From Streptomyces sp. NA02950 (lineage in GTDB: Bacteria; Actinomycetota; Actinomycetes; Streptomycetales; Streptomycetaceae), in NCBI RefSeq assembly GCF_013364155.1, contig NZ_CP054916.1:8834001-8898000 (forward strand): a stretch of 64,000 bases of DNA, read 5' to 3'. Position 1 is the first letter of the stretch. The number at the start of each line of letters is the position of its first letter. The notes beneath the pieces were generated by a model that had not been told where the DNA came from, made no database searches, and saw only the letters and a list, made by a program, of their open reading frames with translations. Both the position numbers and the translations under genes were made by a program. Below are positions 39,109 through 56,108 of the stretch, in pieces.

Positions 39109-41484
39109 TCAAGGCGCCGTATCGGACCGGTTTCTGTCATCGGCCGGGGCGGTCCGGCCCTGCTCCGCTACCCACACCGCCACTTGTGCACGCGAAGTGA
39201 AACCAAGTTTGCTCAGAATGTGCTCAATATGGCCCTCGGCGGTGCGCTGGGCGATCACCAGGGAGGTGGCGATCTCCCTGTTGCTCAGCCCCTGGGCGAC
39301 CAGTCGCGCGATCTCGGACTCCCTGCGTGTCAGGGGAGACGGCCGTTCGCTCACCGCCGGTTCCGCCGTGGGGAGTTCGTTCTCCAGGGCGTAGACCAGC
39401 CCCTCGTCGTAGGAGAGCCGGGAGCCCTCCTTGACCGCCGCGTTGCAGGCCGATTTGCCCAGCGCCCGGCTCACCGCGGCCTCGCACTCCTCGTGGTAGT
39501 GGACCAGATGGCCGTAGCCGGACAGCGGGGCGCCCACCGCCCCCCAGACCGTCCGGACCACGCCGAGCAGCCGGGCCGCCCGCGGGAAGTCCCGCTCGGT
39601 GGCCGCGATCCAGGCCAGCACCTCGAGGTTGACCCCGACCCCCAGCGGATCGTCCAGTGAACGGTTGAAGGCGAGGCTCTCGCGCTCCAGGGCGGCCGCG
39701 CGCTCGGTGTCGCCCTGCCGCCACACCTCGATCCCCAGCGCCATCATCGTGTAGGCCCGGTGCCAGCCCTCGCCGTAGGCGTCGCACACCGCCAGCGACT
39801 CCTCGCCCAGCGCGATGGCGCGCGGCGAGTCACCGATGAACGAGTGGGCCAGCGAGAGCCGGATGAGCGCCAGGGCCAGCCCCACCGGGTCGCCGGTGGC
39901 GCGGTGGCGGCGGACGGCCTCCTCGTAGAGCGTGATCGCGGCCCCGGCGTCGCCCCGGTACATCGCGACCATGCCGGAGTAGAGCGCGGCGTAGGCGAGC
40001 GCGGGCTCCAGCTCCAGCCGCTCCCCGATGGCCCGGCTCTCCTCGAGCATGTCCGAGGCGGCGTCGGTGTCGGACTGGATGATGGCCAGCCAGCTGTTCG
40101 TCCACAGTGCCCGCGCCCGGACGTCGGTCGGCTCGGGGCAGGCGGCGAGCCCCTCGTCCAGCCAGCCGCGCCCCTCGCTGAGGTAGTAGCTGGTGATCCA
40201 GTGGTAGAGCAGGTCGGCCGCGATCCCCAGACCGCAGACGGCCTCTGCCGGGTCGTCGTAGCAGAGCTCCAGCGCGGTGCGCAGATTGGCGTGCTCGAGC
40301 TGGAGCCGCGTGAACCACTGGACCTGGGCCGGTCCGAACAGCGCGGCCCGCGCGTCCGCCGCCAGCCGCTGGTAGTAGTCGCGGTGGCAGCGCATCCGGA
40401 TGATCTCCTCACCGGACGCCTCCAGCCGCTCCCGGCCGTATGCGCGCAGCGTGTCCAGCATCCGGTAGCGCACCACCCCGTCGTACTCCTCCCGGAGCAG
40501 TACCGACTTGTCCACCAGCTCGGTCACCAGGTCGAGGATCTCCTCGCGGACCAGGCCGTCGCCCGAGCAGACCGCCTCGGCCGCCTCCAGGTCCAGGCTT
40601 CCGGCGAAGACCGAGACCCGGGCCCACAGCAGCTGCTCCCGTTCGGTGCACAGGTCGTAGCTCCAGTCGATCAGCGCGCGCAGGGTCTGGTGGCGGGGGA
40701 GCACCGCCCGGGAGCCGGTGGTCAGCAGGCGGAAGCGGTCGTCGAGCCGGTCCAGCAACTGCTGGACCGACAGGGCGCGCAGCCGTACGACGGCCAGCTC
40801 GATACCGAGCGGAATGCCGTCCAGCCGTCGGCAGATCCCCTCCACGGCATCCCGGTTGGCCTCGGTGACGGTGAAATCGGGCAGCACGGCACGGGCCCGC
40901 TCGGTGAACAGCCGTACCGCGTCGCACTGCGCGAACGCCCCCGTGGACAGCCGTGGCCCGGTGGCGTCGGGCAGCGTCAGGGTGGGGACGGCCAGCGTCT
41001 GTTCGCTGCCGATGCCCAGCACCTGACGGCTGGTGGCCAGCACCCGCAGCCGGGGGGCCTCGCGCAGCAGCCGGTCGGTGAGCAGTGCGCAGGCGTGCAG
41101 CAGATGCTCGCAGTTGTCCAGGACGAGCAGGGTCTGCCGGTCCCGCAGATGGTCGATCAGGACGTCCAGCGGCGGCCGGGAGGAGTGGTCCCGGATCTCC
41201 AGGGCCTCGGTGACGCTCTGGGCGAGCAGTGCGGGGTTGTCCAGCTCGGCGAGTTCCGCGAGCCAGACGCCGTCGGGGAAGGCCCGGCGCGCGTCCTCGG
41301 CGACCCGCAGCGCCAGCCGGGTCTTGCCGACACCGCCGACCCCGGTGAGAGTCACCAGGCGCGATGCGGACAGCATTCTCTTGACCTCGGCCGCCTCGTG
41401 CCGACGCCCCACGAAACTCGTCACCTCCGACGGCAGCCTGCCGGTCTGCCGTCCGGCCGAGGTGTCCGTTGCCACCGCACCCAT
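39109..41484 (-). CDS. LuxR-family ATPase regulator (NB-ARC/TPR/HTH)
   Basis: A 791-aa protein from ATG 41484. Residues 25-300 form an AfsR/NB-ARC-like ATPase with LTGVGGVGKTRLALRV (Lys54), LLVLDNCEHLLHACALL (Walker B) and PLGIELAVVRLRALSVQQLL. A TPR-like helical region follows (about 330-690). The last 65 residues are a LuxR HTH (LTRRESEIARLVAQGLSNREIATSLVIAQRTAEGHIEHILSKLGF). Such proteins are ATP-dependent pathway or global activators; the target is unknown. The P-loop is intact, unlike two of the three LAL proteins downstream. Confidence 0.92.
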   Translation of the reverse strand: MGAVATDTSAGRQTGRLPSEVTSFVGRRHEAAEVKRMLSASRLVTLTGVGGVGKTRLALRVAEDARRAFPDGVWLAELAELDNPALLAQSVTEALEIRDHSSRPPLDVLIDHLRDRQTLLVLDNCEHLLHACALLTDRLLREAPRLRVLATSRQVLGIGSEQTLAVPTLTLPDATGPRLSTGAFAQCDAVRLFTERARAVLPDFTVTEANRDAVEGICRRLDGIPLGIELAVVRLRALSVQQLLDRLDDRFRLLTTGSRAVLPRHQTLRALIDWSYDLCTEREQLLWARVSVFAGSLDLEAAEAVCSGDGLVREEILDLVTELVDKSVLLREEYDGVVRYRMLDTLRAYGRERLEASGEEIIRMRCHRDYYQRLAADARAALFGPAQVQWFTRLQLEHANLRTALELCYDDPAEAVCGLGIAADLLYHWITSYYLSEGRGWLDEGLAACPEPTDVRARALWTNSWLAIIQSDTDAASDMLEESRAIGERLELEPALAYAALYSGMVAMYRGDAGAAITLYEEAVRRHRATGDPVGLALALIRLSLAHSFIGDSPRAIALGEESLAVCDAYGEGWHRAYTMMALGIEVWRQGDTERAAALERESLAFNRSLDDPLGVGVNLEVLAWIAATERDFPRAARLLGVVRTVWGAVGAPLSGYGHLVHYHEECEAAVSRALGKSACNAAVKEGSRLSYDEGLVYALENELPTAEPAVSERPSPLTRRESEIARLVAQGLSNREIATSLVIAQRTAEGHIEHILSKLGFTSRAQVAVWVAEQGRTAPADDRNRSDTAP

Positions 41485-41807
41485 CGCTGCCTCGAACCAG
41501 CCCCGGGCGGGCGGACTCCGCCCGCGCGGACCGAGCCGATACCCCAAGGCTATGCCTGTGCGGGGGCCGTCGCAGCCCGTCGAACAGCCGACGTATGACG
41601 TGGGGTGATCCCTCTGTCGCGCATGGTGGGGGAATGCAGCACGGGCGGTGAGCGGTGGTGGCCGGGTGTGATCCCCCCGGGGCCCGGGGGGCGGGATCGG
41701 GTACCGATGCGGGGATATCTCCCCTCGCCGTGTCCGGTCGCGCCGACCGATGCTGGGTTCCTCGGAAGAGCTCCGCCGACCGTCGGCGGAAGAGCGAAGG
41801 TCCAGCC
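41485..41807. other. 323-bp divergent intergenic region
   Basis: No gene is seen. It holds a 9-1-9 palindrome at 41673-41691 and GC-rich inverted sequence (GGGCGG/CCGCCC near 41507). Promoters for the LuxR ATPase (leftward) and the DUF5999 gene (rightward) must lie here, but I see no strong consensus. Confidence 0.5.
41673..41691. repeat. 19-bp GC palindrome
   Basis: CCCCCCGGG-G-CCCGGGGGG is a perfect inverted repeat with GATC outside each end. It lies in the divergent region and may be an operator or a transcript hairpin. Confidence 0.5.
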
Positions 41808-42668: not shown

Positions 42669-42742
42669 GACGATCGCACCGAGTGGCGTAGTTTTCGGAT
42701 TTTTTCGCAGTTTGTGCAGTGTGTGGGGCCGAGGGGGCTGCC

Positions 42743-45646
42743 GTGGGGGATGAGCGGACCACGGCCTCCGGCCCCTCCAGCACCTTGGTCGGCCGCACCG
42801 GGGAACTCGCGGCGCTCACCGGCCACGCCGAGTCCGCCATCGCCGGACGATCCGGACTGGTGCTGCTGACCGGACCGGCCGGAATCGGCAAGACCAGTCT
42901 GCTGCGCGCCTTCCTCGGCAGCGATGTCTGCCGGAAGATGACCATGCTGCACGGCACCTGCGGTGAGGTCGCCTCCGGCACGGGCTACGGCGGTGTCCGC
43001 GCCCTCTTCGGCGCACTGGGGCTCACCGACGGGACTGCCGGGGAGTCCGCGCTGCTGCGCGGCAGCGCCGCACGCGCCCTCCCCGCGCTCACCCCCGACC
43101 CCGGCCATGACGAGCCGTACGCGGCGGCCGCGTACCCGGTGCTGCACGGGCTGTACTGGCTCGCCGCCAACCTCATGGTCCAGGGCCCACTGGCGCTCGT
43201 ACTGGACGATGTGCACTGGTGCGACGAGCGGTCGCTGCGCTGGATCGACTTCCTGCTGCGGCGGGCCGACCACCTCCCGCTGCTCGTGGTGCTCGCCCAG
43301 CGCACCGAGGCCGAGCCCACCGCGCCCGCCGCCCTGGCCGACATCGTCGCCCAGCCCCGCACCGCGGTGCTCCGCCTCGACCCGTTGACCGACACGGACG
43401 TGGGGGAGATGGCGCGGCTGGTCTTCCCCACCCCCGTCGCGCCGAGCTTCGCCGAGCGCGCCGCGGCCGTCTGCGGCGGCAACCCCCTCACCCTCGCCCG
43501 GCTGCTGCGCGAGCTGCGCGCCAAGGGCGTACCGCCCGACGAGCACGGCATCCGGGAGATCGCCGAGGTCGGCCAGCACGTGGTCGCCCTGTCGGTGCGC
43601 GCCCTGTTCGACCACCGGCCCGGCTGGGTCCGGGACGTGGCCACCGCGATCGCGGTCCTCGGCGACGAGGACGCCGGGCACATCGGCGCGCTCGCCGGGG
43701 TCCCGGCCGCCCGGGTCGAGGAGGCCGTGGCGTTGCTGCGCGACGCCGAGGTGATGGCGCCCGACCGCCCGGACCTGGCCCATGACGTGGTGCGCTCGGC
43801 GGTGCTCGAGACCGCCGGCGCCGCGGCCCTGGCCGTGCTGCGTGCCAAGGCCGCCCTGCTGCTGAGCGACATCGGACGGCCCGCCGAGGAGGTCGCCAAC
43901 CAGGTGCTGCTGGTCCCCGGCACCCCCGAACCGTGGATGCGCGTGGTGCTGCGCGAGGCCGCCTCGCGGGCCGAGCACCGGGGCGCCCCCGAGGCCACCG
44001 CCCGCTATCTGTACCGCGTCCTGGAGGCCGAGCCGGACAGCGTCCCGGTCCGGGTCCAACTCGCCAGGGCGCTGGCGGAGATCAACCCGCTGGAAGCGGT
44101 CCGGCTGCTGGAGCACGCGCTGTCGCTGACCTCCGACGTCCGCGCCAAGGCGCCCATCGCCGTGCAGTACGGCATGACCTGTCTGCCCGTGCAGCGTTCG
44201 CGGAGCGCCGTCCGGGTGCTCACCGAGGTGCTGGACGCGCTCGAGGCCGGGACGGGGCCCGAACCCGATCCCCAGGACGCCGAGTTGCTCACCCTCGTCC
44301 GCTCCGCGCTGCTGATCACCGGCTCCGACGAGAAGGCGACCATCGACGCGGTCCGGGAACGCTTCGCGCGGATGCCCGAGCCGCCCGGTGACACCCCCGC
44401 ACAGCGCCAGATCCTGGCCGTGATGACGCTGCACTCCGCGCTGGGCGGCGGCTCCGCCGAGAGCACGGTGCGCCGGGCCCGGCACATCCTGAGCTCCTCG
44501 GGGGTGGCGCTGGACAACTGGTCGTTGCTGCTGTCCTCGGTCAGTCTGACCCTGGCCGACGAGACCGACGGCGCGCTGGAGGCGCTGGACCGCTCGATGC
44601 GGCTCAGCCAGGAGAGCGCGGCGGTGTGGTCGTATGTGCTCGCCCTGTCCAGCCGCGCCCTGGTGCTGCACGGGCTCGGCGCGATGCCCGACGCGCTCGC
44701 CGACGCCCAGACCTCCCTCGAGATCATCGGCGAGGAGCGGTGGGGCGCCAATATGACCATGCCGCAGACCGCGCTGGCCACCGTCCTGATCGACCGCGGC
44801 GAGCCGGAACGCGCCGAAGAGCTGCTGGCGCGGGTCACCCGGCCGAACATCGAGGGGTTCGCCATGGAGTACCACTCGTATCTGATGGCCCGCGCGCGGG
44901 CCCGGTGGGCACTCGGCGACGGAGACACCGCGCTGCGGCTGCTGCTCGACTGCGGGAGTTCCCTGGCCGAAGCCGGGCTCGCCAACCCGGTCTTCGTCCC
45001 CTGGTGGGCCGAGGCGGCCTGTATCTGCGCCGCGGAGAAACGCCCCGACCGGGCACGGGACGCCGTCGACCACGGAGCCGAGCTGGCCCGGCGCTGGAAC
45101 ACCCCCCGCGCCCTCGGGCTCGCCGCGCTCGCCCGGGGAGTGATCACCCCCGGCCGGTCCGGTGTCGAGCTGCTCACCGAGGCCGTCGACCACCTGTCCG
45201 CCTCACCCGCCCGGGCCGAGTACGTCCGGGCCGAACTGCTGCTCGGAGGGGCGCTGCTGGAGGCGGGCGATCCACGCGCCGCCCGGGAGCATCTGCGCAT
45301 GGCCGCCGACCTGGCCCAGAGCTGCGGGGCGCTCGCGCTCGCCCGGGACGCCCGGCGGCGGCTGGTCGCCGCGGGCGGCCGGATGCGCGAGATCACCGCC
45401 TCGCCGGTGGATCTGCTCACCGGCACCGAGCGCACGGTCGCCGGGCTCGCCGCGCGGGGCGCGGGCAACCGGGAGATCGCCGAGTCGCTGTTCGTCACCG
45501 TACGCACCGTCGAGACCCATCTCACCAGCGTCTACCGCAAGTTGGGGGTGAGTCAGCGCACCGAGCTGGGCTCGGTGCTGCACACCCCGAGCGTTCCCGA
45601 TCCACGGGCCCCGGCCTGGGTCTCCGCCGCGCGCGGGCGACCCTGA
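42743..45646 (+). CDS. LAL-type LuxR regulator 1 (NysRI-like)
   Basis: About 967 aa from GTG 42743, with GAGGGGG 5 bases upstream; GTG 42719 is an alternative. The N-terminal AAA ATPase has an intact P-loop (LTGPAGIGKTSLL, Lys50) and Walker B (LALVLDDVHWCDERSL). A long TPR-like middle follows. The C-terminal LuxR HTH is TGTERTVAGLAARGAGNREIAESLFVTVRTVETHLTSVYRKLG. Proteins of this size and layout (MalT/PikD type) activate secondary-metabolite clusters. It is first of three consecutive LAL genes on the plus strand; the next starts 58 bases later. Confidence 0.93.
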   Translation: MGDERTTASGPSSTLVGRTGELAALTGHAESAIAGRSGLVLLTGPAGIGKTSLLRAFLGSDVCRKMTMLHGTCGEVASGTGYGGVRALFGALGLTDGTAGESALLRGSAARALPALTPDPGHDEPYAAAAYPVLHGLYWLAANLMVQGPLALVLDDVHWCDERSLRWIDFLLRRADHLPLLVVLAQRTEAEPTAPAALADIVAQPRTAVLRLDPLTDTDVGEMARLVFPTPVAPSFAERAAAVCGGNPLTLARLLRELRAKGVPPDEHGIREIAEVGQHVVALSVRALFDHRPGWVRDVATAIAVLGDEDAGHIGALAGVPAARVEEAVALLRDAEVMAPDRPDLAHDVVRSAVLETAGAAALAVLRAKAALLLSDIGRPAEEVANQVLLVPGTPEPWMRVVLREAASRAEHRGAPEATARYLYRVLEAEPDSVPVRVQLARALAEINPLEAVRLLEHALSLTSDVRAKAPIAVQYGMTCLPVQRSRSAVRVLTEVLDALEAGTGPEPDPQDAELLTLVRSALLITGSDEKATIDAVRERFARMPEPPGDTPAQRQILAVMTLHSALGGGSAESTVRRARHILSSSGVALDNWSLLLSSVSLTLADETDGALEALDRSMRLSQESAAVWSYVLALSSRALVLHGLGAMPDALADAQTSLEIIGEERWGANMTMPQTALATVLIDRGEPERAEELLARVTRPNIEGFAMEYHSYLMARARARWALGDGDTALRLLLDCGSSLAEAGLANPVFVPWWAEAACICAAEKRPDRARDAVDHGAELARRWNTPRALGLAALARGVITPGRSGVELLTEAVDHLSASPARAEYVRAELLLGGALLEAGDPRAAREHLRMAADLAQSCGALALARDARRRLVAAGGRMREITASPVDLLTGTERTVAGLAARGAGNREIAESLFVTVRTVETHLTSVYRKLGVSQRTELGSVLHTPSVPDPRAPAWVSAARGRP

Positions 45647-45692
45647 GCGCGATGTGACGGCCCGGCGCGGTCCCTGGACGATGCGCCGGACA

Positions 45693-45698
45693 TATAGT
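45693..45698 (+). promoter_or_regulatory. -10 element of a leaderless promoter for LAL gene 2
   Basis: TATAGT ends 7 bases before the ATG at 45705, so initiation would be on the start codon. There is no Shine-Dalgarno sequence. A clear -35 is lacking, so an activator may be needed. Confidence 0.45.
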
Positions 45699-45704
45699 CA
45701 CACC

Positions 45705-48461
45705 ATGCAGTTCAACGGGCTCCCGTTCCCCGGGCGTGAACGAGAGCAGGCGGCGCTGGCGCGGGTCGTCACCGATCTCGTCGAGGGCCGGCCCGCGGTC
45801 GTGACGATCGCCGGGCGACCCGGCTTCGGACAGCGCGCACTGCTCGGATGGGCGGCCCGGCTCGCCGCCGGCCGCGGACTGCGCGTCCTGCGCGCCGAAG
45901 CCACCGTCGGCGAGAGCGTCCTGCGCTACGGCGCCGTCGACCAGGTGCTGACCCCCGTGGACGGGCTCGGCGACGGCGCCCGCCGGGCCCTCGTCGGACA
46001 GGGCCCGGACAGCCGTTTACCGGGACTGGCCGAACTGCTGCGCGCCGCCCGCGACCGGCCCACCCTGGTGACCGTGGCGGACGTGGGCCGGCTGGACCCG
46101 GTCTCACTGCGCTGGTTCGGAGCCCTGATACGCAGACTCTCCGGTACCCCGATCGCGGTCCTGGCCGGCAGCACCGGCGGCCACCACCCGGGCTGGTGCG
46201 GGATCACCTCCGCCCCGGGCCCGGTCCCCGCCACCCAGCTCACCCTGTCCGCCCTGACCGGCCGGGACCTCGCCACCGCCGTGGCGCTGATCTGCGGCGA
46301 GCCCGGCGAGGAGCCGTTCACCGCGGCCGCAGCGGAGGCCACGGCGGGCAATCCCGAGGTGGCGCACGAGGCGTTGCGCCGCTTCGCCGGGCGCGGCCAC
46401 CGGCCGCTGGCCGCCCGGGTGCCCGAACTGCGCTCCCTCGCCGCCTCCGTCACGGGAGAGCACACCGCCCGGGTGCTGAGCGGGCTGCCCGACACCGCCG
46501 TGGCCGTACTGCGGGCGCTGGCGGTCTGCGGCGAACTGCTCGACCTGCCCCTGCTGTACACCCTCGCCGGACCCCGGGCGGCACGTGAACCGGGGCTGCG
46601 CGCCACCCTGGAGGCGACCGGGCTCACCGTCACCTCCGGCACCGCCCTGCGGCTGCGCAACGCCGACGTACGCGCCCGCGTCCTGGAGGAGATGACCGCC
46701 GCCGAACGCGCCGATCTCTTCGCCCGCGCCGCCGAACTGGCGCACCGGGCAGCCGTACCCGACGAGGACATCACCCGCCTCCTGCTCGCCGCCCGCCCCG
46801 CCGGAGAGCCCTGGGCCGTGCACACCCTGCGCCGCACCTGCGCCGCCGCCCTGCGCGCCGGACGGTCCGCCGAGGCGATCGCCTGTCTCACCAGAGCGCT
46901 GGAAGAGCCCATGGAACCCGGGCCGCGCGCCCGGCTGGGCCTCGAACTTGCCGCCATCGAGGTGCTGGCCGCGCCGGAGGCCGGAGACCGTCGCCTGGAG
47001 GAGATCATCCGCACCGAGGGCGACCAGCTCGCCCGGACCCGCACCCGCGCCGCCGATCTGGGCCTGACCCGCGGCGGTGTCGAGGGGCTGCGCCGGGCGA
47101 TGCTGAGCGCGCTGCCCGCGGCCGGTGAGACGGAGCGGGCCGAACTGACCGCCCTCTTCTGGCTCTCCGAGGAGGAACGGGAGGACGACACCGCGCTGAC
47201 GCTGGCCGACGTCCCCCCGCTGCCGGACCGCCCGCCGTGCCCGGCACAGGCCGGGGCGCGTGCCTGGCAACTCGCCCTGCGCGCCGAGAACCTGCCCCTG
47301 ACGCGGGAGCTGGCCCGCCGCGCGGTCACCGGCCAAGAGGGCGGCGGCGCGCTCACCCTGCCCCGGCTCGCGGCGGCCCGCGCCCTGTTCCTGACCGATG
47401 ACGTGGAGGAGGCCGAGACCCGGCTGGACGTCCTCCACACCGAACTGCGCCGCCGCCACGCCCGCGCCGCCGCCGCGCTCGTCCTCGCCGTCCGCGGCGA
47501 ACTCCATCTGCGCCGCGGACGCCTGGACCGGGCCGAACGGGACGCCGTCGCCGCCGAACGGTCCCTGCCCCACGCCCGGTGGCATCCGGACACCGCCCCC
47601 TATCTGTCCGCCGTGCAGATCACCGTCGCCCTGGAGAGCGGCCAGGCCGACCGGGCCCGGGCGCTCGCGGCGACCGCCCCGCCCACCGGCGAGCGACAGG
47701 GCACGGCCTGGGCGTATCTGCTGTTCGCCCAGGGGATGGTGGGCCTTCTGGACGGCCGGGTGACCGAGGCGAGAGAGCGCTTCCGCTCCGCGGGGCGACG
47801 ACTGCTGCGCCGCGGCCACCTCAACCCCGCGCTGATGCCGTGGCGTTCGATGGCCGCCCGGGCCTGCCACGCGGCCGGGGACCACGAGGAGGCCGAGCGG
47901 CTGACCGGGGAGGAGATCGCGCTGGCCCGGCGGTGGGGCGCGCCGAGCGCTCTGGGCTGGGCCCAGCTCGGTGCCGGACGGGTGGCCCGCGAACGGCGCG
48001 CCGACCGGCTCCGCGACGCGGTGCGCACCCTTCGCGGCACCCCCTCCCTGCTGGCCTTCGCCGGTGCGCTCACCGAGCTGGCCAGGACCGAACTCGACGC
48101 CGGGGACCACCGTGCGGCCTCCGCGCTGGTCGCCGAACTGGCCACGTTCACCACCACCCACCGCCCCTCCAGCAGGCTGGCCGAGCGGGTGCGTACGCTC
48201 ACCGAACGACTGGGCCGGTCCGCCGCGTCCGGCACCGTCCCGCATCCGGCGTGGGCCACACTGACCGAGGCCGAACGGCGCACCGCGACCTTGGCCGGAC
48301 ACGGCCGCGGCAACCGCGAGATCGCCGAACTGCTGTCGGTGACCACCCGCACCGTCGAGCTCCGGCTCAGCGGCGCGTACCGAAAGCTGCGGATCCGCGG
48401 GCGGGCGGAACTGCGCACGCTGATCCGGGCGGCAGAGGGGTACGGAACGGATGTTGCTTGA
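45705..48461 (+). CDS. LAL-type LuxR regulator 2 with degenerate ATPase (NysRII-like)
   Basis: A 918-aa protein from ATG 45705. The P-loop position reads GRPGFGQRALL: the Walker A lysine is Gln (residue 43). The Walker B region reads LVTVADVGRLDPVSL, without the acidic pair, so ATP hydrolysis is unlikely. The helical middle and the C-terminal HTH are retained (LTEAERRTATLAGHGRGNREIAELLSVTTRTVELRLSGAYRKL). It may act as a DNA-binding partner or be controlled by hetero-oligomerisation with the neighbouring LAL proteins. Codon 105 is TTA, making it bldA-dependent. The end overlaps the next gene by 11 bases. Confidence 0.9.
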   Translation: MQFNGLPFPGREREQAALARVVTDLVEGRPAVVTIAGRPGFGQRALLGWAARLAAGRGLRVLRAEATVGESVLRYGAVDQVLTPVDGLGDGARRALVGQGPDSRLPGLAELLRAARDRPTLVTVADVGRLDPVSLRWFGALIRRLSGTPIAVLAGSTGGHHPGWCGITSAPGPVPATQLTLSALTGRDLATAVALICGEPGEEPFTAAAAEATAGNPEVAHEALRRFAGRGHRPLAARVPELRSLAASVTGEHTARVLSGLPDTAVAVLRALAVCGELLDLPLLYTLAGPRAAREPGLRATLEATGLTVTSGTALRLRNADVRARVLEEMTAAERADLFARAAELAHRAAVPDEDITRLLLAARPAGEPWAVHTLRRTCAAALRAGRSAEAIACLTRALEEPMEPGPRARLGLELAAIEVLAAPEAGDRRLEEIIRTEGDQLARTRTRAADLGLTRGGVEGLRRAMLSALPAAGETERAELTALFWLSEEEREDDTALTLADVPPLPDRPPCPAQAGARAWQLALRAENLPLTRELARRAVTGQEGGGALTLPRLAAARALFLTDDVEEAETRLDVLHTELRRRHARAAAALVLAVRGELHLRRGRLDRAERDAVAAERSLPHARWHPDTAPYLSAVQITVALESGQADRARALAATAPPTGERQGTAWAYLLFAQGMVGLLDGRVTEARERFRSAGRRLLRRGHLNPALMPWRSMAARACHAAGDHEEAERLTGEEIALARRWGAPSALGWAQLGAGRVARERRADRLRDAVRTLRGTPSLLAFAGALTELARTELDAGDHRAASALVAELATFTTTHRPSSRLAERVRTLTERLGRSAASGTVPHPAWATLTEAERRTATLAGHGRGNREIAELLSVTTRTVELRLSGAYRKLRIRGRAELRTLIRAAEGYGTDVA

Positions 48462-51270
48462 GCGCGAGGCCGAGCGGGCACAGGTCGCGGAGGCCCTGAA
48501 GGCCGCCCGCGCGGGAGAGTCGTCACTGCTGCTGATCACCGGACCGCTCGGGATCGGCCGCACCGCGCTGCTGCAACGGCTGGCCGCCCCCACCGAGGAC
48601 GCCGACGTCCGGGTGCTGCGCGCCAACGCCGCCCCGATGGAGCAGGACTTCGCCTTCGGCGTGGTCCGCCAGCTCTTCGACAGTCTGCTCACCGGTGCCC
48701 CGGAGGAGCTCCGCGAACGCTGGCTGCGGCAGCACGGCGGCTTCGCCCGCACGGTCTTCGCCGACGACGTCGTCCCGTCAGGGGAGGGCCGGGCGGCCGC
48801 CGCCAGTGAGGCCGTGCTGTACGGTCTGCGCTCCCTGCTGGCCGACGTCTGCGCCGACGGTCCGCTGCTGATCCTCGTCGACGACCTCCAGTGGGTGGAC
48901 ACCCCCTCGCTGCGCTGGCTCGCCTACCTGGTCAAGCGGTTGCACGGACTGCGCGCGGTCCTGGTGTGCACCCTGCGTGACGGCGATCCGCGCGCCCAGC
49001 ACCCGCTGCTGAGCGAGGTCACCGACGCGGCCGCGCGGGTGCTGAGCCCCGGGCCGCTCACTCTCGAGGGCACCCAGGGGATGATCCGGGAGCAGTTCGG
49101 CGAGCGGGGCGACGAGGAGTTCGCCCGCGCCTGCTTCGAGATCTCCGGGGGCAACCCGCTGTTCCTGCTGTCGGTGCTGCTCGGCCTCGCCGTGGGCGGC
49201 CACCGGCCCACCGCGGACCACGCCGACGCCGCCCGCGAACTGCGCCCCTCCCAGCTGCGGGAGCGGCTGGCGGGCTGTATGCGCACCCAGCCGCAGCCGG
49301 TACGGGACCTGGCGGCGGCCATCGCGGTCCTCGGCGACCAGGGCGAACCCGAGCTGATGGCCCGGCTCGCCGGACTGGACGCGATCGGCTACACCGCCGC
49401 GCTGCGCGCCGTCCACGAACTGGGGCTGCTCGCCGCCCAACAGGAGCCGCGCTTCGTCCACCGCGTGGTGCAGGACGCGGTCGAGTCCTCCATGACGGTG
49501 GCCGAACGCGAGCGGCTGCACGACACGGCCGCCGCCCTGCTGTACCGCAACGGATGCCCGGCGGAGCTGGTGGCGGCCCAGCTGATGGCCGTCACCGCCT
49601 CCCGCCACCCCTGGTCGGTGGAGGTGCTGCGGGCCGCCGCGGACACCGCGCTGCGCCGCGGCGCACCGGACATCGCCGCCCGCTATCTGCGCCGTGCCCT
49701 GCTGGACGGCTCGCTGTCGGGCGAGGGCCGGGCCCGGCTGCTGATCGATCTGGCCACCGCGGAGCGCGGTTTCGACCCGGCCGCCTGCGAACGCCATATC
49801 TCCCAGGCGATACCCCTGCTGCCCTCGGCCCGGCACCGGGCCGCCGCCGCCCTGCGCATCTCCCCGACCATCGTGGGGCTCACGCCCCCGTCCGTCCTCG
49901 ACCTGCTGCACCAGGTCGCCGAGGACCTGGGCCCGGTGGCCGAGCTGGAGGGCACCGCACGCGATCTGTCCCTGCGGCTGGAGGCCCGGCTGCGGCACGC
50001 CGGGCACGAGGATCCGGCCGAACTGGCCGCCGCCGTGGCCCGGTTGAACGGCATGGGGGAGGAGCCGCCGCTCGGCTCGCCCGCCGAACGCGAGCTGACG
50101 GCCGTGCTGCTCACCGCGGCGACGCTCACCGCCCGGCTGCCCGCCGATCGGGTCACCCGGCTGGCCCACCGCGTCCTGGAACGCGAACCGGCCACCTCGG
50201 CACGGGTGCACTCGGCGCTGCCGCTGGTGGTGATCGCCCTGGTCGCCTCCGACTCGGTGCGCGACATCACCTCATGGCTGTCGGCCGAGCGGCACACCGT
50301 GCGGCAGGACGCCACCGTCGTCGACGCGTTCGTCCACCTCGAGCGGGCGATGGTGCTCACCGCCCGTGGACGGGCCGCCAAGGCGCTCGACCACGCCGAA
50401 CGCGCCGCGCGGCTGGCCGAGGACCACTGGCAGGAGATCGGCGTCATCTCCACCGCGGCCCTCACCGGGGTCGCCCTGGAACTGCGCGACCCCGCGCTCA
50501 CCGAGCGGATCCTCGACCGGCTCGGCCGGCGCCGCTCCGCCGACCTGGCGCTGACGGCCGCCCTCCAGCTCCTCAAGGCGGCACAGGACACCGGGCACGG
50601 CCGCTGGACCGGTGCGCTGGAGACCCTGCTCGCCTGCGGACGGCAGATGGAGGCGTCGGGCTGGCGCAACCCCGTGCTCTTCCCGTGGCGGCCCTGCGCG
50701 GCCGCCCTCCAGGTGCGCGTCGGTGACGCCCGCGCGGCGTTCGCCCTCGCCGAGGAGGAACATCTGCGGGCCGTGGAGTGGGGAGCGCCCGTGGCGGTGG
50801 GCCGCGCCCTGCGGCTCAAGGGGCGGCTGAACGGCGGCGACCGGGGCGTGAACCTCCTGCGGGAATCCGTCGATGTGCTGCGCGCCTCCGCCAATGAACT
50901 CGAACTCGCCCGTGCGCTGCTGACCCTGGGCAGACGGCTGCGCGGCGGCACCGAAGCCGAGACCGTACTCCAGGAGGCCGCCGTCCTCGCCGCCGCCTGC
51001 GGCGCTCCCTGGCTGAGGGAACGGGCCGGTACCCGGAACGGCCGCGCCGCGTCCGCCACGCGGCCGGAGGCCGGTCTCACCCGCACCGAACGCACGGTGA
51101 TCTCCCTCGTCGGCCGCGGGCTCACCAACCAGGAGATCGCCGGTGAACTCGGGGTGACCTCACGCGCCGTCGAGAAGCACCTCACCCACGCCTACCGCAA
51201 GCTCGAGGTCTCCGGCCGCCGCGAACTCATCCGTCTACTGCCTCGCCTTCAACGGGAAAACCGCAGTTAA
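48451..51270 (+). CDS. LAL-type LuxR regulator 3 (NysRIII-like)
   Basis: A 939-aa protein from ATG 48451, 11 bases inside the preceding gene. The P-loop reads ITGPLGIGRTALL, with Arg37 in place of the Walker A Lys. Walker B is intact (LLILVDDLQWVDTPSLRWLAYLVKRLHG). The C-terminal HTH is LTRTERTVISLVGRGLTNQEIAGELGVTSRAVEKHLTHAYRKLEV. Lys-to-Arg changes usually weaken nucleotide handling. Overlap with LAL gene 2 indicates joint translation. It is probably part of a hierarchical activator set with its two upstream neighbours and the PAS-LuxR gene. Confidence 0.92.
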   Translation: MLLEREAERAQVAEALKAARAGESSLLLITGPLGIGRTALLQRLAAPTEDADVRVLRANAAPMEQDFAFGVVRQLFDSLLTGAPEELRERWLRQHGGFARTVFADDVVPSGEGRAAAASEAVLYGLRSLLADVCADGPLLILVDDLQWVDTPSLRWLAYLVKRLHGLRAVLVCTLRDGDPRAQHPLLSEVTDAAARVLSPGPLTLEGTQGMIREQFGERGDEEFARACFEISGGNPLFLLSVLLGLAVGGHRPTADHADAARELRPSQLRERLAGCMRTQPQPVRDLAAAIAVLGDQGEPELMARLAGLDAIGYTAALRAVHELGLLAAQQEPRFVHRVVQDAVESSMTVAERERLHDTAAALLYRNGCPAELVAAQLMAVTASRHPWSVEVLRAAADTALRRGAPDIAARYLRRALLDGSLSGEGRARLLIDLATAERGFDPAACERHISQAIPLLPSARHRAAAALRISPTIVGLTPPSVLDLLHQVAEDLGPVAELEGTARDLSLRLEARLRHAGHEDPAELAAAVARLNGMGEEPPLGSPAERELTAVLLTAATLTARLPADRVTRLAHRVLEREPATSARVHSALPLVVIALVASDSVRDITSWLSAERHTVRQDATVVDAFVHLERAMVLTARGRAAKALDHAERAARLAEDHWQEIGVISTAALTGVALELRDPALTERILDRLGRRRSADLALTAALQLLKAAQDTGHGRWTGALETLLACGRQMEASGWRNPVLFPWRPCAAALQVRVGDARAAFALAEEEHLRAVEWGAPVAVGRALRLKGRLNGGDRGVNLLRESVDVLRASANELELARALLTLGRRLRGGTEAETVLQEAAVLAAACGAPWLRERAGTRNGRAASATRPEAGLTRTERTVISLVGRGLTNQEIAGELGVTSRAVEKHLTHAYRKLEVSGRRELIRLLPRLQRENRS

Positions 51271-51396
51271 CGTCGGTAATTGAGCGGGATCGGCGCAGCC
51301 GGTGAACCACCGAACCGAACCACCGAAACCCAGGGGTGCGGACCGAACCCCGGCCCCCGCCGACCACAGGATTGGGCCACAACACCGCAGTTGACG

Positions 51397-51426
51397 TTGA
51401 CTGGCTCAGCCACTCCTCCCTAGTCT
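51397..51426 (+). promoter_or_regulatory. Housekeeping-type promoter for the PAS-LuxR operon
   Basis: TTGACT (51397-51402), 18 bases, TAGTCT (51421-51426). A second TTGACG starts 6 bases earlier. The predicted leader is about 80 bases. An ACCGCAGTTgACGT element here repeats one near 51262 at the end of LAL gene 3, possibly a shared binding site. Confidence 0.6.
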
Positions 51427-51515
51427 CCATTCTGAAATCACATTCGAAAAACAATTGCGCGCACAATCCCCCCCGCAGAATTCAGAATTCAGGAAGGGAT
51501 GGCAGTCCCTTGGCA

Positions 51516-52196
51516 ATGTCCGCACTAGCAGATTCGGCTCGGCCAACCCCCCACGAGCTCGGATGTGAACAGGCCGAGTACGCCGATCTCCTGCGCCAGT
51601 TCGACCAGCCAGGGGTGTGCGTCGTATGTCTCGACCCGTCCCTGACGGTCCAGCAGGCCAACCGGGAATTCTTCCGCCAGTTCGACGACGCCACGGCCGA
51701 CGTCTGCGGCCGCGGCTTCTGCGACCTGGTCCACCCGAGTGTCCGGCAGACCCTGCGACGTCAGTTCACCGGGCTCGTCGACGGTTCCCGTCATCGCTTC
51801 GCCGCACAAACGGTGCTCGTCGGATCGCAGGGTTCGGCCTTCACCAGTGTGCTCACGGGCGTGGCCGTACGCGAGGGCCGCTCCCATGTGGCGTCCATCC
51901 TCGTGCTGTTGCGCCCCACCGCGGGCGGCGGCGAGCTGAACATGGTCACCGAACGCAAGAAGCTGCTCACCGAGATCGAGGCGCGCATCCTGGAGGGGAT
52001 CGCCGCCGGTCTGTCGACGATCCCCCTGGCCGCGCGGCTCTACCTCAGCCGACAGGGCGTCGAGTACCACGTGACCCGGCTGCTCCGTAAGCTGCGGGTG
52101 CCCAACCGTGCCGCCCTGGTCTCCCGCGCCTATTCCATGGGCGTCCTCAATGTGGGCTCCTGGCCTCCGAAGGTCGTCGAGGACTTCGTCAAGTGA
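51516..52196 (+). CDS. PAS-LuxR transcriptional regulator (PimM/NysRIV-like)
   Basis: A 226-aa protein from ATG 51516; upstream AGGAAGGG is somewhat distant. The PAS-like sensor covers residues about 20-135 (YADLLRQFDQPGVCVVCLDP, VQQANREFFRQF, CDLVHPSVRQTL, AVREGRSHVASILVLLRP). The LuxR HTH covers about 148-206 (LLTEIEARILEGIAAGLSTIPLAARLYLSRQGVEYHVTRLLRKL). The ending VSRAYSMGVLNVGSWPPKV is like those of polyene PAS-LuxR activators. Those proteins directly activate polyketide genes. Here the stop overlaps the GTG of the acyltransferase gene by 4 bases, so its own coupled targets are likely the next two genes. Confidence 0.9.
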   Translation: MSALADSARPTPHELGCEQAEYADLLRQFDQPGVCVVCLDPSLTVQQANREFFRQFDDATADVCGRGFCDLVHPSVRQTLRRQFTGLVDGSRHRFAAQTVLVGSQGSAFTSVLTGVAVREGRSHVASILVLLRPTAGGGELNMVTERKKLLTEIEARILEGIAAGLSTIPLAARLYLSRQGVEYHVTRLLRKLRVPNRAALVSRAYSMGVLNVGSWPPKVVEDFVK

Positions 52197-53074
52197 TCCC
52201 GCCCGAGGGGTGGGCGACTCGCGGCCACAGCCGGTCCGATGCCGACCGGCTGTGGCCGCGCCGCCACTCCAGAACACCTGACACGGACCGGGCCCTCGCC
52301 CACCTCGACCCGCCGGTCGCCGACTACGCCCGCGACGGCGTCGTCCGCACCGTACGGATCGCCCGGACCACCCCGCGCCGCGCCGACGTGCTCCATCTGC
52401 GCCGGGCCCACCACCGGCGGACGCTGGACCGGCTCGGCGTCCCGGTCTGGGACGAGGACGACGAGCGGGCCGTGCATCTGCTGTGCACGGAGGGCGACAC
52501 GGCGGTCGGCGCCCTGCGCGTCACCGTCGACCGGGCCGGAGAGGGCGAGCTCTACGAGGACTTCGGGCACGAGGAGTTCGGGCACGAGTACTTCGGGCAA
52601 AGCGACTTCGGCCACGAGGACTTCGGCCGAGGCGACTTCGGCCACGACGATTTCGGCCCGCTGCACAGGACGCTCGGCGACGCTGAACTGCTGATGTTCG
52701 CCCGGCAGATCGTGCAGCCGCGACGGCGCGGCAGCGAGGTCGCCACCGCGCTGGCCCACGCCGCGTGCCTGTGGTGGAGCGTGCACTCCCGGCTGCGGCG
52801 GATCGCGTTCACCGGGATCACCCCCGCGGCGCCGGCCCCGGTCTTCGGGGCCACCGCGGTCACCCCGCCGTTAGCCCTGGGCCCGGCGTGCGTCGCGGTC
52901 GCCGTCTTCACCGGGCGGCTGGACACGGTCGCCGACGAGACCGCGCGGCGGCTGCTCCGCACCGGATGGTCGATCACCCTCCGGGAGGCCCTGGGCACCG
53001 GCGGAGCCGCGGGCGCGGCCGTCGACACGGCGGCCGGAACGCGGGAGGCGGACGCGCCGCGGGAGACACCGTGA
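52193..53074 (+). CDS. GNAT/autoinducer-synthase-like N-acyltransferase with FG pentapeptide repeat
   Basis: A 293-aa protein from GTG 52193, coupled to the PAS-LuxR gene. Residues 65-115 (LHLRRAHHRRTLDRLGVPVW, EDDERAVHLLCTEGDTAVGALRV) and 164-182 (ELLMFARQIVQPRRRGSEV) resemble the fold shared by LuxI-type and FeeM-type N-acyltransferases, with a GNAT-like acyl-CoA motif near PRRRGS. Between them, residues 123-155 are seven [DEY]FGxx units, an insertion not expected in the family. The C-terminal tail is Ala/Gly/Thr-rich. It may join an acyl chain to an amino acid or amine. Codon 227 is TTA. The stop overlaps the P450 start. Assignment to GNAT is moderate. Confidence 0.72.
   Translation: MIPPEGWATRGHSRSDADRLWPRRHSRTPDTDRALAHLDPPVADYARDGVVRTVRIARTTPRRADVLHLRRAHHRRTLDRLGVPVWDEDDERAVHLLCTEGDTAVGALRVTVDRAGEGELYEDFGHEEFGHEYFGQSDFGHEDFGRGDFGHDDFGPLHRTLGDAELLMFARQIVQPRRRGSEVATALAHAACLWWSVHSRLRRIAFTGITPAAPAPVFGATAVTPPLALGPACVAVAVFTGRLDTVADETARRLLRTGWSITLREALGTGGAAGAAVDTAAGTREADAPRETP
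52559..52657 (+). repeat. In-frame 15-bp minisatellite (FG pentapeptide repeat)
   Basis: Seven units of 15 bases (the last partial) encode D/E/Y-F-G-x-x, with x-x usually His-Glu or His-Asp. The DNA units share TTCGG(G/C)CACGA. The spacing and central Phe fit the pentapeptide-repeat pattern. The array could expand or contract without frameshift. Confidence 0.85.
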
Positions 53075-54291
53075 CCGACGTCCGCGCCCCCGCCGGGCCG
53101 CCCCGGCTGCCGTTCCCGGGCGGGCGCCCGGCCGAACCGCCCTCCCTCTACCTCCGGTTGCGCCGGGAGTGCCCGGTCAGCCGGGTCCGGATGCCGTCCG
53201 GCGATCTCGGCTGGCTGGTCACCCGGTACAAGGACGCCCGGTTCGCGCTCTCCGACCGCCGGTTGAGCAAGGCCGCGCTCACCGAGCCCGGCGCACCCCG
53301 GATCCGGCCCGGAGTCCTGCCGCCGGGGCTGCTGTTCACCACCGATCCGCCCGAGCACACCGTACTGCGCACCCGGGCCACCGCCGCGCTGACCCGTACC
53401 CGGATCGGCACCCTGCGCCCCGCGGTCGGCCAGATCGCGCGGGACCTCGCGGACACCCTCGGCCCCCGCGGCGAGGCCGACCTCGTGGCCGACTTCGCCA
53501 GGCCCCTCGCCATGCGCGTCATGTGCCGTCTGCTCGGCGTCCCCCTGGGCGACCGGGAGCGGTTCGCGCACTGGGCCGAGGCGGTGCTCGCGGTCGACGG
53601 ACACGGCTCCGGCGAGGTCGAGCGCGCCCAGCGCGACCTCATGGCGTACACCGCGGCCCTGGTCGCCGCACGCGCCGCGGCACCCTCGGACGACCTGGTC
53701 TCCGCGCTCGCACGGGACGGCGACGACGCCACCGCCGTCTCCCTCGCCGCCACGTTCCTGGTCACCGGATACGAGACGATGGTCGCCGCCGTCGCGAACG
53801 CGGTGCTGACCCTGCTCACCCGGGGCGGTCTCCCCGCGCCCTGGCCCACCGACCCCCGGGCGCTGATCGAGGAACTGCTGCGGCTGGGCACCTTCGGTGA
53901 CGCGCTGCGCACCCGCCGCGCGATCGCCGATGTCACCGTGGGCGGCGTGACGGTGCCCGCTGGTGACGTGGTGCTGGTCTCCCTCGCCTCCGCCAACCGC
54001 GACGAGACCGTCTTCACCGCCCCCGACCGGCTGCTGCCGGGCCGCACCCCCCGCCATCTGGCCTTCGGCCACGGTGCGCACTACTGCCCCGGCGCGCGGC
54101 TGGCCCGGATGGAGCTGGAGGCCGGCCTGCGGTGTCTGGCCGGCCGCTTGCCCGGGCTGCGGCCGGCGATGGCGCCGGAGGAGGTGGTGCCGCGCGCGGG
54201 CTCCGCCGAGCGGCCGCCCGAACGGCTCCCCGTCCGCTGGGATCCGCCGGGCGGTGCGAGCGGCTCAGGACGCGGAGGAGGGGCCGTGTGA
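53071..54291 (+). CDS. Cytochrome P450 (bacterial class I)
   Basis: A 406-aa protein from GTG 53071, 4-base overlap with the acyltransferase gene. The I-helix has FLVTGYETM (Thr236 of the oxygen-activating pair), EELLR gives Glu268-Arg271 of the ExxR motif, and FGHGAHYCPGARLARME supplies the haem ligand Cys339. FTTDPPEHTVLRTRATAALT is the conserved C-helix region. Such soluble P450s hydroxylate or epoxidise secondary metabolites using ferredoxin partners, none of which is encoded nearby. Its likely substrate is the acyltransferase product. The last 27 bases overlap the PucR gene end-to-end. Confidence 0.94.
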   Translation: MTDVRAPAGPPRLPFPGGRPAEPPSLYLRLRRECPVSRVRMPSGDLGWLVTRYKDARFALSDRRLSKAALTEPGAPRIRPGVLPPGLLFTTDPPEHTVLRTRATAALTRTRIGTLRPAVGQIARDLADTLGPRGEADLVADFARPLAMRVMCRLLGVPLGDRERFAHWAEAVLAVDGHGSGEVERAQRDLMAYTAALVAARAAAPSDDLVSALARDGDDATAVSLAATFLVTGYETMVAAVANAVLTLLTRGGLPAPWPTDPRALIEELLRLGTFGDALRTRRAIADVTVGGVTVPAGDVVLVSLASANRDETVFTAPDRLLPGRTPRHLAFGHGAHYCPGARLARMELEAGLRCLAGRLPGLRPAMAPEEVVPRAGSAERPPERLPVRWDPPGGASGSGRGGGAV

Positions 54292-56023: not shown

Positions 56024-56037
56024 ACAATGATCATTGT
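56024..56037. promoter_or_regulatory. 14-bp palindromic operator, PucR/gabT intergenic region
   Basis: ACAATGATCATTGT is a perfect palindrome 72 bases upstream of gabT and about 100 from the PucR start. Two TTGACA sequences (55963-55968, 55988-55993) lie between it and the PucR gene. Confidence 0.55.
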
Positions 56038-56108
56038 CTTGGCCCGGTCCGCTCCCTCACGCTCGAAGAGTCCGCGCAAACGCCGACCTGTTGGGTGTGG
56101 GAGAGAAC

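Follow-up and report, generated by a model that had tools for sequence, protein, structure and literature searches.

A polyene-type LAL/PAS-LuxR regulatory quartet without a neighboring polyketide synthase in Streptomyces sp. NA02950

The regulators of nystatin (NysRI–RIV), amphotericin (AmphRI–RIV), and tetramycin (TtmRI–RIV) biosynthesis sit inside their polyketide synthase (PKS) clusters and comprise three LuxR/ATPase (LAL) proteins and one PAS-LuxR protein. Candicidin (FR-008) likewise has three LALs (FscRII–RIV) and one PAS-LuxR regulator (FscRI). According to the part of the published work available to us, the PAS-LuxR operator is the 16-mer CTVGGGAWWTCCCBAG, FscRI and PteF act across clusters, and the ligand of the PAS domain in the polyene PAS-LuxR proteins is called unidentified.

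The same kinds of genes, in a contiguous plus-strand set arranged as in the polyene regulatory quartets, are found in the window, i.e., the whole 64,000-nucleotide stretch analyzed here, and are followed by two further genes:

42719..45646, plus strand: LAL1, LuxR/ATPase, 975 aa (GTG 42719) or 967 aa (GTG 42743)
45654..48461, plus strand: LAL2, 935 aa (start 45654) or 918 aa (ATG 45705)
48451..51270, plus strand: LAL3, 939 aa
51516..52196, plus strand: PAS-LuxR regulator, 226 aa (ATG 51516)
52193..53074, plus strand: GNAT-type acyltransferase
52221..52259, plus strand: 16-bp inverted repeat right after the PAS stop, within the annotated start of the GNAT reading frame
52559..52648, plus strand: DFGHE-like repeat insert of 30 residues in the GNAT, not in 14 aligned homologues
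53071..54291, plus strand: cytochrome P450, 406 aa from GTG 53071

A sequence-only reading had described three LuxR/ATPase genes of about 967, 918, and 939 aa and then a 226-aa PAS-LuxR gene on one strand, and the reading frames and Pfam agree with it (AAA_16 and GerE in all three LALs, PAS and GerE in the PAS-LuxR protein). The likeness to the nystatin, amphotericin, and tetramycin regulators is one of kind and size, the PAS-LuxR protein being similar in length to NysRIV (210 aa), AmphRIV (243 aa), and TtmRIV (201 aa). Pimaricin differs: PimR is a SARP-LAL with CGGCAAG repeats separated by 4-bp spacers, whereas the LALs of the window are plain and its ACCGAACC repeats are spaced by about 20 bp. 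Unlike in candicidin, PKS, sugar, and transport genes are missing beside the quartet, no candicidin-type operator is detectable before LAL1, and GNAT and P450 genes follow the PAS gene.

The Walker A motif is intact in LAL1 (GPAGIGKT). Its Lys is replaced in LAL2 (GRPGFGQR), likewise in 29 of the 30 aligned LAL2 rows, the remaining row being a gap, and by Arg in LAL3 (GPLGIGRT), likewise in 48 of 71 aligned LAL3 rows. The heme Cys and ExxR of the P450 are present, as judged by eye, and its start overlaps the GNAT stop by 4 bp. The GNAT start also overlaps the PAS stop; we discarded this as evidence of coupling because, by our reading, a C-terminal Lys codon followed by TGA yields such an overlap anyway.

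The quartet, its flanks, and its relatives

Our own-genome search gave 79 PF00109 (ketosynthase) matches, and those nearest the block lie at C1:8593421-8594128 (~283 kb to the left) and C1:9123307 (~235 kb to the right), which means that the window is not simply cut at the edge of a cluster. The claim that the window lacks a PKS therefore holds, and no PKS cluster lies immediately outside it. Since no polyene PKS cluster surrounds the quartet, it is classed as a regulatory remnant of a polyene cluster and not as part of one. The flanks had been described as ordinary metabolism; this fits the left one less plainly, where a further LuxR/ATPase gene (39109-41547, minus strand) and a DUF5753 regulator are found, and the right flank carries a PucR regulator and an aldehyde dehydrogenase.

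Of 80 fetched loci, 39 share the LAL1-LAL2-LAL3-PAS arrangement, strand included; in a further 18, the three LALs are in order but are not directly followed by a PAS gene. A PKS adjoins the quartet in S. albidoflavus, S. celluloflavus, Kitasatospora, Allokutzneria, and others, and several syntenic quartets adjoin candicidin-type aromatic-polyene genes. The assignment to polyene quartets is anchored in synteny and in the candicidin-type genes around the S. albidoflavus quartet (L068), a locus that contains PKS, PabAB, DegT, TE, P450, CoA ligase, and ABC genes and is probably the candicidin cluster itself; the LAL1 of the window is the syntenic counterpart of the first LAL in such quartets.

Ten Streptomyces genomes, that of the window included, have the quartet without a PKS in the flanks read, and these rows form a single clade in the LAL3 (10 rows), PAS (10 rows), and LAL1 (9 rows) trees, with SH-aLRT values of 99, 100, and 100, respectively. 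PKS labels were mapped on the LAL3 tree only, the LAL1 and PAS trees giving the same clade without them, and the kinship of LAL2 rests on synteny and identity. LAL1, LAL3, and the PAS-LuxR protein thus branch among quartets, many of them PKS-adjoining, and not with unrelated LAL families. It should be noted that 18 of 46 rows were labeled "unknown" for PKS, including Nonomuraea L083 and Goodfellowiella L088, both outside the clade, in which no PKS was found in the ~20–30 kb examined beside the quartet. If these two are counted as PKS-less, more than the single reported change is needed, and quartets without a PKS may have more than one origin.

In eight relatives, the block and both flanks are collinear with the window except for the GNAT-P450 segment, which indicates a common site. 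Neither the window nor ~50 kb surrounding the site in S. coffeae showed a PKS remnant, so loss of the PKS from the site and relocation of the quartet are inseparable here.

Candidate operators and coding constraint

Two conserved elements precede the PAS gene:

51309..51349, plus strand: predicted operator responding to the LALs, with direct repeats of the ACCGAA type (51309, 51322, and 51342) and a 20-bp spacing from the second to the third
51391..51426, plus strand: candidate PAS-LuxR promoter (TTGAC..., TAGTCT), conserved in the clade

Of 19 loci, 17 have the element ACCGAACC upstream of the PAS gene (0.6 expected; across 60 shuffled sets, the highest count reached by an 8-mer was 7), although the 19 loci are related, four belonging to the PKS-less clade, and the shuffles ignore kinship; a twentieth named locus, L083, gave no sequence. 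Eighteen operator matches carried the label "elsewhere", a label under which those of L071, L083, L099, L117, L119, L211, and L215 in fact lie near a PAS gene.

The recognition helix of the PAS-LuxR protein matches that of PKS-linked relatives, its segment LSRQGVEYHVT being identical in 16 of 21 rows, including the window and L068. The published 16-mer was not detectable before LAL1 in the window (best site, 4 mismatches). The best site there has 2 mismatches in L068, L070, L071, L080, and L130, and a site with ≤3 mismatches is absent also in the PKS-linked L074, L075, L081, L084, L103, and L138. At ≤1 mismatch, the 16-mer occurs in 3 of 120 loci (L060-L179) and is thus too strict to decide. 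In the own genome, it gave 23 distinct sites with ≤2 mismatches versus 11 for the reversed control, which makes it a weak guide to trans targets. The best site (1 mismatch, C1:621319) lies in an apparently non-coding stretch, and none of these sites was a convincing trans target of the PAS-LuxR protein.

The quartet frames are full-length in all ten genomes except for LAL1 of S. himastatinicus, which is interrupted by an N run. In PKS-less pairs, dN/dS is 0.24–0.53 for the LALs and 0.08–0.26 for the PAS gene; the LAL2 value for L070-L080, from an 11-codon piece, is meaningless, and a value of 2.1 for the gene 56034-57368 versus L065 probably reflects a frame artefact and was disregarded. The LAL values exceed those of most flanking genes, and LAL constraint may accordingly be relaxed. 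Judged by the intact frames, dN/dS <1, the retained helix, and the ACCGAACC repeats, the wiring looks alive.

The GNAT-P450 pair

The window GNAT alone matched no Pfam family at E 1. PF21926 (FeeM) matches 8 of 15 members of the family to which this GNAT belongs at E ≤1 (best 1.8e-6), the window member not being among them, and against autoinducer synthases (LuxI) there was no significant PDB match (best E 0.23). The likeness of the GNAT family to FeeM-type N-acyl amino acid synthases is a weak profile similarity. The available part of PMC10883386, on LuxI homologues in Streptomyces, holds no link to polyene regulators.

The six genes recur in identical order and orientation in two Kitasatospora-type genomes (L211, L215); unlike in the window, they lie there beside an aromatic-polyene cluster (PabAB, DegT aminotransferase, TE, CoA ligase/loading PKS, and ABC genes). 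Identity between the window and L215 is 64% for LAL3, 62% for PAS, 51% for GNAT, and 70% for P450. In Allokutzneria, PAS-GNAT-P450 adjoin a PKS. The P450 is 55% identical to that of Allokutzneria and 66–70% to those of the Kitasatospora-type genomes, against ≤45% among the matches listed in 60 other genomes.

The segment missing from the relatives is the following:

52265..54260, no strand assigned: indel segment, most of GNAT and P450, unaligned in all nine PKS-less relatives

In NBS 14/10, more than this segment is missing. S. coffeae, with which the 16-bp inverted repeat is largely common, keeps a GNAT stub of 24 codons. S. cucumeris and NPDC048636 have GNAT homologues, the GNAT and LAL3 matches of S. 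cucumeris citing contigs of unequal length.

Given the six-gene order in the Kitasatospora-type genomes, the Allokutzneria arrangement, and the S. coffeae stub, the pair is an old neighbor of the quartet, and it is absent from most sampled members of the PKS-less clade. Of the two options raised from the sequence, a detached polyene-type regulatory island therefore stands, there being no PKS near, whereas a new coupling to the acyltransferase-P450 pair is contradicted by that six-gene order.

Origin and function of the block

With a probability of about 0.72, we regard the quartet as the edge of an ancestral aromatic-polyene-type cluster, kept at a fixed site after PKS loss. The PKS would have been lost from this chromosomal site in the ancestor of a violaceusniger-like Streptomyces clade, and the regulatory edge, LAL1-LAL2-LAL3/PAS-LuxR with the GNAT-P450 pair behind the PAS gene, would have been kept. 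The LALs would still activate the PAS-GNAT-P450 operon via the ACCGAACC repeats, and the PAS-LuxR protein, its recognition helix being unchanged, would act in trans at promoters in other parts of the chromosome, much as the cross-cluster action of FscRI and PteF is known; the candicidin-type feedback operator from PAS-LuxR to LAL1 is not detectable here.

The quartet could instead be the split-off dedicated regulator of a PKS cluster in its own genome, which we consider unlikely. Two highly unsaturated clusters are at hand, 8.5426-8.5941 Mb (10 KS, 8 DH) and 8.0839-8.1394 Mb (10 KS, 9 DH), two P450 genes near 8.531-8.533 Mb are 45% identical to the polyene-cluster P450, and the published cross-cluster control would offer a precedent. 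However, a LAL of its own is present in the 8.54 Mb cluster, and a scan of 40 stretches of the own genome (795 kb in all, most of it near KS genes) found no homologue of the Kitasatospora-type DegT aminotransferase; in these stretches and the window, the sole exact match to the double ACCGAA operator is the PAS promoter, six others having 1 mismatch. That the quartet is a decaying remnant without present function is quite improbable. Such decay would fit the absence of PKS, sugar, and transport genes beside it, the loss of the pair from nine relatives with a stub in one, the undetectable site before LAL1, and the raised LAL dN/dS, but not the frames complete in nearly every case, the low PAS dN/dS, or the retained PAS promoter repeats.

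Recent acquisition of the pair, unrelated to the regulators, is very unlikely and is disfavored by the Kitasatospora-type and Allokutzneria arrangements and by the S. coffeae stub. The pair is indeed patchy, in 4 of 41 LAL3-tree rows, scattered and requiring 3–4 changes, in a count that scores L086 as pair-less though its contig ends soon after LAL3 and omits seven long-branch rows. A GNAT profile match (E ≤1e-15) occurs in 6 of 394 Streptomycetaceae genomes, including this one, and three of the six have no quartet in the stretch read. Yet in all four loci where a GNAT adjoins a quartet, the pair lies directly behind the PAS gene, and the identities of pair and regulators drop in parallel.

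Under the preferred reading of a retained cluster edge, the pair may give a clue to the signal or to the present targets of the switch. One speculative and rather doubtful possibility is that GNAT-P450 makes an N-acyl, P450-oxidized small molecule, diffusible or intracellular, that the neighboring PAS-LuxR protein binds as its ligand. Against this, the pair is missing behind the quartets of nine PKS-less relatives, and many PKS-linked quartets, the candicidin-type locus included, show no pair. If true, it would explain why, of all non-regulatory genes, only GNAT and P450 were retained next to the quartet and why the pair lies where it does in the four loci, and the six genes would be a self-contained signal-and-switch module, LuxI/LuxR-like in logic, outliving its polyene.

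Cluster-situated regulators are normally read as serving their own cluster. A complete PKS-less quartet with a conserved internal promoter element in ten sampled genomes suggests that it serves other genes. The ACCGAACC repeats provide a concrete candidate operator for the LALs of large polyene clusters, and two questions become testable: what role a polyene regulator has after the loss of its cluster, and what the PAS domain of the polyene PAS-LuxR proteins senses.

The regulatory block and polyketide synthases of the genome

The window (C1:8834001-8898000 on the chromosome contig C1; genome size 9.77 Mb) has its closest relatives in Streptomyces according to homologue searches. It carries the following block:

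42719-45646, + strand: LAL1, LuxR/ATPase regulator (Pfam AAA_16 and GerE)
45654-48461, + strand: LAL2, LuxR/ATPase regulator (Pfam AAA_16 and GerE)
48451-51270, + strand: LAL3, LuxR/ATPase regulator (Pfam AAA_16 and GerE)
51516-52196, + strand: PAS-LuxR regulator (Pfam PAS and GerE)
52193-53074, + strand: GNAT-type acyltransferase (no Pfam domain found with the window protein alone)
53071-54291, + strand: P450 (Pfam p450)

The sequence-only reading, which described three LALs and a PAS-LuxR gene on one strand without a polyketide synthase (PKS) in the window, is borne out by this six-gene order; the nearest of the 79 ketosynthase matches in the genome lie about 283 kb to the left and about 235 kb to the right of the block. 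The Walker A motif is canonical in LAL1, and its lysine is substituted in LAL2 and LAL3, as it is in 29/30 LAL2 and 48/71 LAL3 rows of the alignments. Upstream of the quartet, an extra LuxR/ATPase regulator of the NB-ARC/TPR type (39109-41547, − strand) is collinear in the PKS-less relatives.

In 40 stretches of this genome (G000; 795 kb, mostly around PKS genes), the Kitasatospora-type DegT aminotransferase gave no match; the other query genes do have homologues there, including a PabAB (44%) near 0.869 Mb and two P450s (45%) near 8.532 Mb. Ketosynthase and dehydratase counts describe two PKS clusters, G000:C1:8542622-8594128 (dehydratases in 8/10 modules, with its own LAL gene inside) and G000:C1:8083903-8139389 (9/10 modules), and such dehydratase-rich modules imply highly unsaturated products. 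A second PAS-LuxR paralogue, 44% identical, is located at G000:C1:943894-944496.

Quartets in relatives and the PKS-less clade

Loci with LAL3 relatives are spread over genera including Streptomyces, Kitasatospora, Nonomuraea, Allokutzneria and Goodfellowiella. Among the best 80 named loci from a LAL3 profile search, 39 have LAL1-LAL2-LAL3-PAS in window order and all on one strand, and a further 18 have the three LALs in order but no PAS gene directly behind them. Within the fetched flanks (at most 10 kb per side), a PKS is present in 18/80 loci and is already evident at the S. celluloflavus quartet. Wider flanks, read for 16 selected genomes, show a PKS adjoining the quartet in S. albidoflavus, S. 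odonnellii, S. lushanensis, Kitasatospora MAA4, S. calvus, HNM0575, CB00316, S. xantholiticus, S. lonarensis and Allokutzneria A3M-2-11; none was seen in the stretches read around S. coffeae, S. himastatinicus, NBS 14/10, Nonomuraea basaltis (L083) and Goodfellowiella (L088).

PabAB, DegT, TE, P450, CoA ligase and ABC homologues are present in addition at the S. albidoflavus, S. calvus and Kitasatospora MAA4 loci, which matches the gene complement of aromatic heptaenes, for example candicidin. Candicidin-type genes were looked for around L068 (S. albidoflavus), L072, L077 and both Kitasatospora-type loci, and the outcome strengthens the anchoring of the quartet while leaving the weight of the competing explanations as it was.

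S. himastatinicus has a second, distant quartet (L126; 39% for LAL3), in which a PAS gene is surrounded by four LAL-like genes and a PKS follows. In loci L094, L100, L107, L114 and L128, LAL3 is directly followed by a P450 that is 35-39% identical to that of the window, and a PAS gene was not detected anywhere in the locus.

On both sides of the quartet, the flanking DNA is collinear with S. coffeae, S. himastatinicus, S. endocoffeicus, S. rugosispiralis, NBRC 110028, S. samsunensis, S. niphimycinicus and S. hygroscopicus, and partially with NBS 14/10; PKS absence in six of these nine relatives (L062-L065, L067, L076) was judged from flanks of at most 10 kb. In trees built by a quick method (LAL3, 46 rows; PAS, 55 rows; LAL1, 36 rows; SH-aLRT support, no bootstrap), the PKS-less rows form one side of a single branch for LAL3 (10 rows, SH-aLRT 99), PAS (10 rows, SH-aLRT 100) and LAL1 (9 rows, SH-aLRT 100). 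They sit among PKS-linked rows in the LAL3 tree, where a single change of PKS state is enough, counting the 28 rows of labelled state; L083 and L088, if counted as PKS-less, would raise that number above one.

The dN/dS values (NG86) are 0.24-0.53 for the LALs and 0.08-0.26 for PAS in eight PKS-less pairs, and 0.16-0.47 and 0.12-0.35, respectively, in four PKS-linked pairs; flanking genes of the same genomes give 0.11-0.41, with one outlier set aside.

The GNAT-P450 pair

Segment 52265-54260 has no alignment in any of the nine PKS-less relatives. In S. coffeae, 24 codons of the GNAT start are still readable (VILSEGWAIRGHSRSLADRLWPRR against VIPPEGWATRGHSRSDADRLWPRR), a stub that points to loss of the pair by deletion there. 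S. rugosispiralis carries an inverted repeat, ATATCCCCGGTCGG...CCGGGGATATGACAC, between its PAS and PucR genes (L063, about 14510-14590); it was not seen in the other stretches compared and is possibly a small mobile element.

The GNAT is rare: with the 8000 candidates sharing most words scored, the protein search gave at least four matches, own included, and a five-sequence profile at least 15. Matches occur in 6/394 Streptomycetaceae genomes, own included. Two of these (Kitasatospora-type) have LAL1-LAL2-LAL3-PAS-GNAT-P450 in order, adjoining DegT, P450, TE, PabAB, CoA ligase, ABC and PKS genes (by tblastn for both loci, and by Pfam and NCBIfam for one of them); no quartet was seen in the stretches read in the other three, whose matches are weaker. 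Allokutzneria A3M-2-11 (L089) likewise has PAS-GNAT-P450. Identities of regulators and pair to the window drop together from the Kitasatospora-type L215 (LAL3 64%, PAS 62%, GNAT 51%, P450 70%) to L089 (51%, 50%, 33% and 55%). The GNAT family is weakly similar to FeeM (8/15 members, best E 1.8e-6) and to Acetyltransf_5 (12/15 members); a 30-residue repeat insert in the window GNAT is missing from 14 homologues.

Promoter elements and proposed regulation

The 8-mer ACCGAACC occurs ahead of the PAS gene, on either strand, in 17/19 representative loci (0.6 expected); across 60 shuffled sets, single 8-mers reach at most 7, a contrast inflated by the kinship of the 19 loci. It lies mostly about 170-245 bp ahead of the PAS start in PKS-linked and PKS-less loci alike; the exact double repeat is found once in the window, at 51322. 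PimR is reported to bind repeats in the pimM promoter (PMC5930380) and, by analogy, the LALs would bind the ACCGAACC repeats. Among the literature matches listed for ACCGAACC with LuxR and Streptomyces, the string appears only in one Serratia paper.

A PAS-LuxR site has been reported upstream of fscRIV (PMC5143413). In L068, L070, L071, L080 and L130, this site can be recognised, with 2 mismatches, as CCGGGGAAATCCTTAG some 170 bp upstream of LAL1; the mean for shuffled sequences is 4.5-4.7 mismatches, with 2 reached in L080 and L130. The best match before LAL1 has 4 or 5 mismatches in the ten PKS-less genomes and also in the PKS-linked L074, L075, L084, L103 and L138, so that lack of the site is not confined to orphan quartets. 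Across the own genome, sites with at most 2 mismatches number 23 versus 11 in the control, with no target named. Titles and abstract openings of the papers listed in a literature search, with subscription journals mostly outside its scope, gave no orphan polyene quartet.

Our data demonstrate the anatomy, history, constraint and conserved promoter element of the quartet. As for its action, the LALs would turn on PAS-GNAT-P450, and the PAS-LuxR protein may thereafter act on unlinked promoters, because published PAS-LuxR proteins work across clusters: such action is reviewed in PMC9774167 and is reported for PteF, and FscRI is reported to act across clusters on the antimycin cluster (PMC5143413).
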